Positions 49,202 through 51,729 of a DNA stretch of 52,634 nucleotides are shown here, in pieces. The notes under the pieces were generated by a model, which saw nothing but the letters and a program-made list of their open reading frames with translations, searched no databases and was not told the origin of the DNA. The stretch comes from Nitrospirota bacterium (GTDB lineage: Bacteria; Nitrospirota; Nitrospiria; Nitrospirales; Nitrospiraceae): the NCBI GenBank assembly GCA_030682135.1, contig JAUXQT010000011.1, forward strand, positions 1 through 52,634, in the 5' to 3' direction. The position numbers and the translations under genes are program-made. Numbering within the stretch: the first letter of the stretch is position 1; every line of letters starts with the position of its first letter.

Positions 49202-49435
49202 CTAGGAAGTTCGAGACCGTCGGTCGAAAAAACGCATCGCCAAACCTCCGGCCGCCAGGCCTGCAGCAAAGAGGGCACCGATCATCCACAAGGACGGAAC
49301 GTCCGTTCGCCTTGGCTCACGACGGCGAAGCTCTCGATTGAGATTCGGCATATGGGATTCAGCCCCGAGCCATTCATCCTCAGGCGAGCCGTTCGAGCCT
49401 TTCTTCACGGACATGGCTGTTCTTCCTTCACTCAT
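49202..49435 (-). CDS. Small single-pass membrane protein
   Basis: A 77-residue protein with a polar, charged N-terminal half and one membrane helix near the C-terminus (LWMIGALFAAGLAAGGLAM), then a basic tail (RFFDRRSR). That layout suggests a tail-anchored inner-membrane protein. Two in-frame ATGs (49435 with GGAG, 49414 with GAAGGAAG) both have plausible ribosome binding sites. It lies about 60 bp downstream of the marR-like gene on the same strand and may share its transcript. No family recognised. Confidence 0.6.
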   Translation of the reverse strand: MSEGRTAMSVKKGSNGSPEDEWLGAESHMPNLNRELRRREPRRTDVPSLWMIGALFAAGLAAGGLAMRFFDRRSRTS

Positions 49436-49495: not shown

Positions 49496-50188
49496 CTAGG
49501 CAATACATGAACGGGAAAAATTGGTCCAGGCCGCATCGACCTGCGCGACCGGAGCCGCCTCGTATTCATGGCAATCCAAACGAAGCGAACGATCCCCGAA
49601 CGACGCGTTCAAATAATCGCAGTGGTGCGGCCGATCGGCGTTGTCATAGTGATTGGGGCGAAAATACTGACAGGAGATACACATCCGCGCGACGGAAATC
49701 TCCCCCTGTTCCTGGAGGCTGTGAATCACCTTCACCAAGGACGTAAGGAGAAGGACTTGCTCCGGTGACGAGAGGGTGTCCGTCGCGGTCGCCAGCCGAT
49801 CCGGCATACCGGTCGAAGGCGTACAGGACCGATTTCCTTTGGCCGTCAATTGCGCCGTCACCACGCGTCCATCGCTCGTATCTCGCCTCCTCCGTACCAA
49901 TTGCTTCCGCTCGAGCGTCGCAATGACTTCCGACGCAGTGGGAAGCCTGACGGCTAATTCATTGGCTACAGTCGAGACGGTGGCGCGCTGGCCTGGCTTG
50001 GATCGAAGAAGCGTGAGGACCTGTCGCTGCAAGGGGCCGAGACCTGCTCGACCTTCACGTCGCCATGTCCGGCTTTTCATCGCCAGCCCGATCTTCTCCA
50101 GACCGGCCACCAACTGAGTGGTCATTGCAACCGCATCCTGCAATGACGATGACTTCTTCCCGTTATTGAGTACGCGCAATTCAGCCAT
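49496..50188 (-). CDS. MarR-family regulator with C-terminal Cys4 tail
   Basis: A 230-residue regulator. Residues ~45-125 form the winged helix-turn-helix (GPLQRQVLTLLRS, VSTVANELAVRLPTASEVIATL, ERKQLVRRRRDTSDGRVV). It is much longer than a typical MarR (~140-150 residues): after a linker, the tail holds Cys170-x2-Cys173, His188-His189-Cys190 and Cys206 in LRLDCHEYE, a probable metal or Fe-S site. DNA binding may thus respond to metal or redox state. The ATG at 50188 has AAGGAGG upstream; a longer frame is not used. Its promoter carries an inverted repeat at the likely start of transcription, suggesting autoregulation. Confidence 0.88.
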   Translation of the reverse strand: MAELRVLNNGKKSSSLQDAVAMTTQLVAGLEKIGLAMKSRTWRREGRAGLGPLQRQVLTLLRSKPGQRATVSTVANELAVRLPTASEVIATLERKQLVRRRRDTSDGRVVTAQLTAKGNRSCTPSTGMPDRLATATDTLSSPEQVLLLTSLVKVIHSLQEQGEISVARMCISCQYFRPNHYDNADRPHHCDYLNASFGDRSLRLDCHEYEAAPVAQVDAAWTNFSRSCIA

Positions 50189-50202
50189 GGAGCACCTCCT
50201 TA

Positions 50203-50249
50203 AATACCAGTATTCGAAAAGTGTAGTGTCCACACGATAGCCACGTCAA
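50203..50249 (-). promoter_or_regulatory. Promoter and candidate operator of the MarR-like gene
   Basis: On the minus strand: -35 TTGACG (50249-50244), an 18-bp spacer, and -10 TACACT (50225-50220). Immediately downstream, covering the expected transcript start, is the palindrome AATAC-CA-GTATT (50203-50214), just before the ribosome binding site. A repressor bound there would block its own promoter. Confidence 0.55.
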
Positions 50250-51245: not shown

Positions 51246-51549
51246 CTGCAAGGACTCTCTTCACGCCACCAGGGTCTCTTCTCACAAGGGGCCCTGGCAC
51301 GCGTCGATTCCCCTCCCCATCAGGCCCCCTCATGAGTACACAGATCCGCACGTTGATACTTGCACATCGTTCCTCTGGCTAAAACCGTAGGGTTGCACAA
51401 AATTGAAAGCATAAATGCAACACACTGTACAGAGTTGTACGTATAAGTAGTCACCACAGTACTAAGCTATTGATAATCCAACATTGTCGAGCTGGACCGC
51501 AAATTGCTTTACCATCGTACAAGTTCGATTCATAACCAGGGAGGCTACG
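51246..51549. other. Intergenic region with hairpin (51269-51297) and AT-rich promoter zone
   Basis: CCAGGG (51269-51274) pairs with CCCTGG (51292-51297) around a 17-nt loop, 24 bp after the preceding stop; it is a weak terminator candidate. The second half (51395-51480) is AT-rich with the repeated TGTAC/TTGTAC motif at 51425-51440, probably the control region of the zinc-ribbon gene. No ORF is supported. Confidence 0.45.
51448..51477 (+). promoter_or_regulatory. Possible promoter for zinc-ribbon gene
   Basis: TAGTCA (51448-51453) and GATAAT (51472-51477) are separated by 18 bp and match the sigma-70 consensus at 4 of 6 and 5 of 6 positions. The start codon is about 70 bp downstream. The surrounding DNA is AT-rich, which supports but does not prove promoter activity. 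Confidence 0.3.
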
Positions 51550-51729
51550 ATGGATTGTCCGAAGTGCAAAGGTCTGATGATGCTGGAACGATTCTCCGAT
51601 TTTTTCCTGGTGTTCTATGCCTGGAAATGTGTCAACTGCGGAGCGGTCATCGATCGGACAATCTCCAATAACCGGAGAGCCAGTCTTGCCGCCATAGCGG
51701 CAAAAGAAGTTGAAACGACCACGGTATAA
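51550..51729 (+). CDS. Small zinc-ribbon protein
   Basis: A 59-residue protein with two CxxC knuckles: Cys3/Cys6 in MDCPKCKG and Cys27/Cys30 in WKCVNCG, separated by about 20 residues, the spacing of a zinc ribbon. The middle (DFFLVFYAW) is hydrophobic and the tail is basic then Ala-rich. GGGAGG lies 5 nt before the ATG at 51550; a longer frame to 51484 is not credible. It could bind nucleic acid or protein. No partner gene is adjacent. Confidence 0.8.
   Translation: MDCPKCKGLMMLERFSDFFLVFYAWKCVNCGAVIDRTISNNRRASLAAIAAKEVETTTV

Follow-up and report, generated by a model that had tools for sequence, protein, structure and literature searches.

In the available excerpts of its description (PMC12343034), ArnR of Corynebacterium glutamicum is a dimeric MarR/ArsR-like winged helix-turn-helix (wHTH) protein that represses hmp and nar and senses nitric oxide (NO) through a C-terminal [4Fe-4S] cluster, and it thereby provides a precedent that a MarR/ArsR-like wHTH protein with a [4Fe-4S] cluster can work by NO sensing. 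The regulator proposed here would share this architecture, but that description sets ArnR apart: it has three conserved cysteines (residues 179, 193, and 223) and a sensor domain that is TRAPPC3-like in the authors' modelling, and it is found almost only in Actinobacteria, whereas the present tail has the pattern C-x2-C-x16-C-x15-C. NsrR, according to the same excerpts an Fe-S repressor of NO-detoxifying haem proteins, and other Rrf2 regulators would work alike but belong to a separate protein family.

Described MarR repressors (e.g., MepR, YusO, OhrR, and AdcR/ZitR) have the same core fold, PF01047, and a palindrome at their own promoters; solved MarR structures match the model of the present protein mainly over residues 14 to 167, and the tail cysteines lie beyond this span. 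HiPIP and BSS-beta have a similar cysteine spacing pattern and a weak fold match to the tail, but no significant sequence similarity to it. CioR and OsbR, with one and two cysteines, respectively, in the available parts of their descriptions, are probably not members of the family. No characterised member was found among PDB sequences and open-access papers, in agreement with the original prediction.

Gene, MarR core, and cysteine tail

The gene lies on the minus strand at positions 49496 to 50188 of the window (the whole 52,634-nucleotide stretch of DNA that was analysed), with an ATG at 50188 and a stop codon at 49496 to 49498, and encodes a 230-amino-acid (aa) MarR-family repressor with an added cysteine tail. 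The MarR winged helix is present: PF01047 matches at 38.2 bits (cut-off, 24.6), and the DNA-binding region comprises residues ∼49 to 120 (49829 to 50044, minus strand), as placed by Pfam MarR (55 to 110), MarR_2 (49 to 108), and model elements H52-63 to H116-121. The full-length AlphaFold2 model has a mean pLDDT of 89.5 (87 to 97 in the tail blocks) and aligns with 1s3j_B over 140 residues (Z, 15.4; rmsd, 2.6). For the window protein and six relatives, all listed matches to NCBIfam MarR equivalogs were under the cut-off. A GTG at 50233 was rejected as the start, since it would place the operator palindrome within the gene and since relatives conserve an ATG preceded by AAGGAGG, the ribosome-binding site (50195 to 50201, minus strand).

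The tail domain comprises residues ∼161 to 208 (49565 to 49708, minus strand), as delimited by alignments and model pLDDT. Cysteines had been claimed at residues 170, 173, 190, and 206 and are found at exactly those residues, beyond the MarR core; C170 (49679 to 49681), C173 (49670 to 49672), C190 (49619 to 49621), and C206 (49571 to 49573), all on the minus strand, form the motif C170-x2-C173-x16-C190-x15-C206, accompanied by H188 (49625 to 49627) and H189.

Several comparisons bear on the conservation of this tail. First, of 121 homologues, drawn from many phyla, 119 contain the motif C..C-x(8-22)-H.C-x(12-20)-C; 41 of the 121 came from whole-protein searches (31 loci and 10 of 35 plasmid records; motif in 40 of the 41) and 80, the best of 210 confirmed, from patterns that include tail residues, which inflates tail conservation among those 80. 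The spacing is fixed, with a motif length of 37 in 113 of the 119 matches. Second, across more than ten phyla, the four cysteines are complete in 120 of the 121 proteins, and every one of the 121 keeps one or both of the adjacent histidines. The Cys4/His tail of the original prediction stands to that extent, with the reservation that H188 itself is a tyrosine in L083, where the next histidine is retained. Third, the invariant columns past residue 164 in a 16-protein alignment (Nitrospira relatives, Cyanobacteria, Proteobacteria, Deinococcota, and Bacteroidota) are C170, C173, H188, C190, L202, R203, and C206, and in a 72-protein alignment the four cysteines are invariant while H188, H189, L202, and R203 occur in at least 90% of proteins. 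Loss of the four cysteines from close orthologues would count against the tail proposed originally; 23 of 24 such orthologues retain all four, and one (L019, genome G007) has lost C206, which is replaced by phenylalanine.

At E≤0.001, 36 of 61 genomes (the window genome and 60 relatives) have a match; two scans of viral contigs gave no relative. A further cysteine, at residue 122 (49823 to 49825), occurs in 23 of the 24 window-clade proteins and in 1 of the 97 others. Elsewhere in the window, a small ORF at 51484 to 51729 has two CxxC pairs (CPKC and CVNC) and appears zinc-ribbon-like by eye.

Operator B and promoter in the window's clade

A sigma70-like promoter, TTGACG-18-TACACT (50220 to 50249, minus strand), is directly followed by a candidate operator palindrome, AATAC-CA-GTATT (AATACCAGTATT; 50203 to 50214), and the expected transcription start falls inside it. 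That the palindrome covers the predicted start had been proposed from the window sequence and is confirmed by promoter geometry and by conservation in 24 orthologues of the same genus. TTGAC occurs at the same distance in all 24, 33 to 39 nt before the operator of this clade, operator B (counted with up to three mismatches to AAATACTGGTATTT accepted), and xTxGTATT is kept at the palindrome spot in all 24. The promoter hexamers, palindrome, and ribosome-binding site form conserved blocks when the 24 upstream regions are aligned. Of 14 symmetric positions, 12 are found in 11 orthologues, 10 in 7, 8 in 2, and 6 in 4, i.e., at least 8 in 20 of the 24. L013, L015, and L019 (genomes G027, G028, and G007), which keep the right half-site only, form a sub-lineage in which the left half-site is degraded and, in L019, C206 is missing, as if decaying.

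AATACNNGTATT occurs once in the window, against 0.01 expected from shuffles, and the exact palindrome occurs at three places in the 3.75-Mb genome, against none in a backwards control. In 32 genomes of the genus, AAATACTGGTATTT with at most one mismatch has 28 sites in 20 genomes (5 in the reversed control), 18 of them at the window-type marR gene and 10 elsewhere, as assigned by comparing places with homologue matches. Its retention in the 24 orthologues, with some decay, shows the palindrome to be more than chance.

Downstream on the same strand is a 77-aa ORF (49202 to 49435, minus strand) in which a single membrane span is visible by eye. It has a tblastn match beside marR in 22 of the 24 window-clade loci and starts 60 to ∼230 bp downstream of that gene (∼60 bp in the window). 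It is missing at L017 and L025, the latter a locus that ends early, and was found at none of 15 other loci searched by tblastn. Because the ORF is on the same strand in 22 of the 24 loci, the likely unit is marR plus the 77-aa ORF, and the two may be co-transcribed. A convergent lipoprotein-like gene lies further downstream, with synteny kept.

A regulon defined by the operator-B motif in the window's own genome was rejected, as matches with three mismatches (199, against 208 in the reversed control) were not enriched; the two further exact palindrome sites, on contigs C81 and C90, have neighbours without an evident thematic link and could be due to chance. In other Nitrospira genomes, operator-B-like sites occur before a peptidase gene (papain-like by eye; L163, L168, and L170) and, in L169, L171, and L173, near another gene common to the three genomes. 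The peptidase gene is not put forward as a second target: although operator B with at most one mismatch precedes it in 3 of 13 genomes with the gene, against 5 of 680 background windows, the window genome lacks it.

The window genome also encodes a paralogue (40%; L176:8156-9301, contig C48) with a truncated haemoglobin gene (PF01152, exported-looking) directly after it, a pairing found in all five such paralogues in the genus. A Tll0287-like ORF lies ∼3 kb from this paralogue, and no operator was recognised for it. Operator A, described below, is absent from the window genome at up to one mismatch, and no globin or thioredoxin gene adjoins the regulator in the window's clade.

Operator A and partner genes in other phyla

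In many other phyla, operator A (TTAGGANTCCTAA) is found upstream of marR, often right after TTGAC and TATTAT-like hexamers. When up to two mismatches are tolerated, the 19,602 bp preceding marR contain 61 operator-A matches, at 59 of the 121 loci; the other 928,600 bp of these loci contain 45. TTGAC lies 28 to 42 nt before operator A in 29 of 61 loci, and 37 of the 49 TTGAC occurrences near operator-A sites are 22 to 33 nt ahead of the site. Neither operator label was assigned to 36 of the 121 loci (45 by a stricter scan). The autorepressor originally suggested draws support from where the palindrome lies and how well it is conserved, and from a family-wide putative operator at the same promoter position. 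A text search of open-access papers for operator-A spellings gave matches on animal biology only, as judged by title.

Wide flanks are available for 90 loci, 80 from genomes and 10 from plasmids, which contain 24 further operator-A sites with at most one mismatch. Twenty of these, two of which are a repeated pair on L045, mark globin, protoglobin, thioredoxin-like (Trx3), or sec258 (258-aa secreted-looking protein) ORFs and lie within 193 bp before the partner ORF or just inside its listed start (L077). The other four comprise one site in front of an HPP gene, one 166 bp ahead of marR itself (L046), and two unassigned sites (L046 and L038).

Within 5 kb of the regulator, a globin-type ORF occurs in 39 of the 90 loci, a thioredoxin-fold ORF in 32, sec258 in 20, and any of these in 69, a descriptive figure because neighbourhoods were built from simple ORFs and BLAST with seeds chosen for recurrence near marR. 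The kinds of globin near the family are protoglobin, single-domain globin, long flavohaemoglobin-like protein, and truncated haemoglobin (PF01152). The 39 loci divide into 29 with protoglobin (PF11563 in 4 of 4 scanned), 1 with truncated haemoglobin, and 9 with globin or flavohaemoglobin-like ORFs, for which the globin label denotes similarity to one gene annotated as globin and "flavohaemoglobin-like" denotes length plus similarity. The Trx3 neighbour is under the Pfam cut-off (22.5 versus 24.8 bits) and the redoxin barely over it (26.3 versus 26). The 258-aa secreted-looking family (e.g., L074:5705-6481 and L097:5573-6403) matched no Pfam or NCBIfam model among its scanned members, and its gene has its own TTAGGANTCCTAA site in L047, L063, L074, and L077.

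Annotated plasmid loci include one with tpx and thioredoxin (L032), two with redoxin, two with TlpA (one of them with NnrS), and one where hmpA occurs with Rrf2, catalase, protoglobin, and a hexameric tyrosine-coordinated haem protein. Four of the 10 lack both globin and thioredoxin-fold genes, and three of these four (L033, L034, and L038) have the 258-aa protein. An Rrf2 gene is near the regulator in 5 of the 90 loci. The 21 loci without a partner family include all 11 Nitrospirota loci of the set; among the rest, three adjoin a cupredoxin-like ORF (one scanned, the others by eye) and one an HPP gene. In Hydrococcus rivularis (L053:4194-4962), the gene immediately preceding the regulator encodes an HPP membrane protein (PF04982) and has operator A in front of it; HPP proteins have been linked to nitrite transport.

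In many other phyla, TTAGGANTCCTAA appears to place globins or protoglobins and thioredoxin-fold proteins under the control of the same protein. That several kinds of globin recur along with thioredoxin-fold proteins suggests that the signal is NO or a related oxidant. The haem-protein neighbours (globins, the hexameric tyrosine-coordinated haem protein, and catalase), and the Tll0287-like ORF near the paralogue, would also suit a tail that binds haem or iron, as a sensor controlling haem proteins; we consider this highly improbable, as it leaves the thioredoxin-fold targets unexplained and four cysteines with one histidine are not a usual haem site. The family, the conserved cysteines and palindromes, the promoter geometry, and the association with partner genes are computed observations, and a cross-phylum regulator family with an operator and partner genes is a larger finding than the original prediction.

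The operator tree groups all 24 operator-B rows, 7 of them labelled by hand (L009, L011, L013, L015, L019, L023, and L024), in a single clade (SH-aLRT, 95), and L028, of the same family, has operator A. This arrangement points to an operator switch within the family, in which the window's Nitrospira-type clade would have changed from TTAGGANTCCTAA to AAATACTGGTATTT; operator A itself is patchy, with 15 changes, on a quick tree with long branches and L065 misplaced. Residues 81 (R versus T/S) and 88 (V versus A/S) are candidates for determining operator type, although they separate one clade only; E87 was rejected, as 17 of 61 operator-A proteins also have E. With its operator changed, its partners absent, and C206 lost once, the window clade could have left the ancestral regulon, its protein serving only as a local switch, under its own control, of marR and the 77-aa ORF. 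This would be compatible with the other readings but seems rather improbable to us, given that all four cysteines are kept in 23 of 24 orthologues and that some relatives have a possible second target.

Possible tail fold and proposed cofactor and mechanism

The cysteine spacing of the tail resembles that of HiPIP (C-x2-C-x14-C-x13-C in 1cku), both having one CxxC followed by two single cysteines. Foldseek with a tail-only model (mean pLDDT, 78.1) against 350,542 chains gave two matches at E≤10, the best being HiPIP 1b0y (E, 4.1; probability, 0.14; far below significance) and the other an unrelated repair enzyme. Among Foldseek's five best chains, VIA-align gave Z≥2 for two, both benzylsuccinate synthase chains (69 and 68 residues), with Z values of 2.3 and 2.2 over 46 residues, again far below significance. 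These chains are the size of the resolved BSS-beta, which in the available excerpts has a HiPIP-like fold holding a [4Fe-4S] cluster that is lost in the C29S variant (PMC12590467). The aligned range, if ungapped, places model C15 (C173) at chain residue 29, by arithmetic rather than as tool output.

Sequence comparisons gave no significant link to HiPIP. HHalign of the tail with two HiPIPs reached 4.3% and 2.9%, which does not support homology, with 0 of 60 and 2 of 60 cysteine-fixed shuffles attaining the real scores. Four tails had no match to any Pfam family, HiPIP and BssB_TutG included, at E≤10, and the tail profile found nothing relevant among PDB sequences (none better than E 0.3; best, CD33). 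PF18512, across 148 genomes of the phylum, had one sub-threshold match in another genome and none in the window genome. We regard an Fe-S cluster in the tail as likely and a HiPIP-like tail as a serious guess. The metal or redox sensing proposed originally is supported indirectly by the conserved Cys4 and histidine and by globin and thioredoxin-fold neighbours in relatives, and weakly by the HiPIP-like fold match.

The same ligands, four cysteines with at least one adjacent histidine (the latter in all 121 homologues, one of which lacks C206), would suit a zinc site (C3H or C4) with a structural or redox-switch role, from which peroxide, HOCl, or disulfide stress would release the zinc and de-repress thioredoxin-fold and haem-protein genes; the thioredoxin-fold neighbours at 32 of 90 loci and tpx beside L032 fit such a response. 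We take this seriously but find it unlikely: several kinds of globin point to gas or NO rather than thiol stress, the weak fold matches with a metal centre are [4Fe-4S] proteins, and the cysteines are not arranged as two CxxC pairs, which zinc ribbons usually have. A cluster-free thiol switch, in which oxidant stress would link some of the four cysteines by a disulfide, as in OhrR-type MarR proteins, is more doubtful still. OhrR is a MarR-family thiol switch in the available part of PMC8282892, and thioredoxin-fold partners could reset such a switch, but the fixed spacing (37 in 113 of 119) and the conserved HxC and LRxxC frame exceed the needs of a two-cysteine switch.

The preferred reading, to which we give about an even chance, is a MarR-type autorepressor with a metal centre in the tail, most likely [4Fe-4S], that is relieved by NO or oxidants. 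For its steps, we infer dimerisation, DNA binding, the cofactor, the signal, and the direction of the response. The sensor would be the C-terminal four-cysteine mini-domain, in which a [4Fe-4S] cluster is most likely bound much as in HiPIP. As long as this cluster is intact, the dimer would bind the palindrome over its own transcription start and block RNA polymerase. That the palindrome covers −10/+1 and that this geometry is conserved imply autoregulation, with repression by occlusion, which probably includes the downstream 77-aa ORF. NO or a related oxidant would nitrosylate or damage the cluster, DNA binding would be lost, and the genes would be expressed. The least secure step is the signal assumed for the window gene, which is taken from the rest of the family, since operator B has no linked globin or thioredoxin target. 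The regulator is probably a redox or NO sensor of a kind not yet characterised.

More tentatively, as a possibility that we would not favour in full, a HiPIP-fold [4Fe-4S] domain may serve as NO or redox sensor of a MarR repressor in a cross-phylum family, with a single operator (TTAGGANTCCTAA) from cyanobacteria to planctomycetes, control of globin and thioredoxin genes, and a rewired operator in the Nitrospira branch. HiPIP-fold [4Fe-4S] domains are otherwise known as electron carriers or enzyme subunits, and we know of no earlier case of a HiPIP-like sensor domain in a transcription factor. If this is right, the induction of protoglobins and other globins in many bacteria, proteins with an often obscure physiological role, could be explained by one uncharacterised regulator. 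NO is plausibly a routine stress for a bacterium of the nitrite-oxidiser type. The change of operator in a single clade would offer a usable case of regulator-operator co-evolution.
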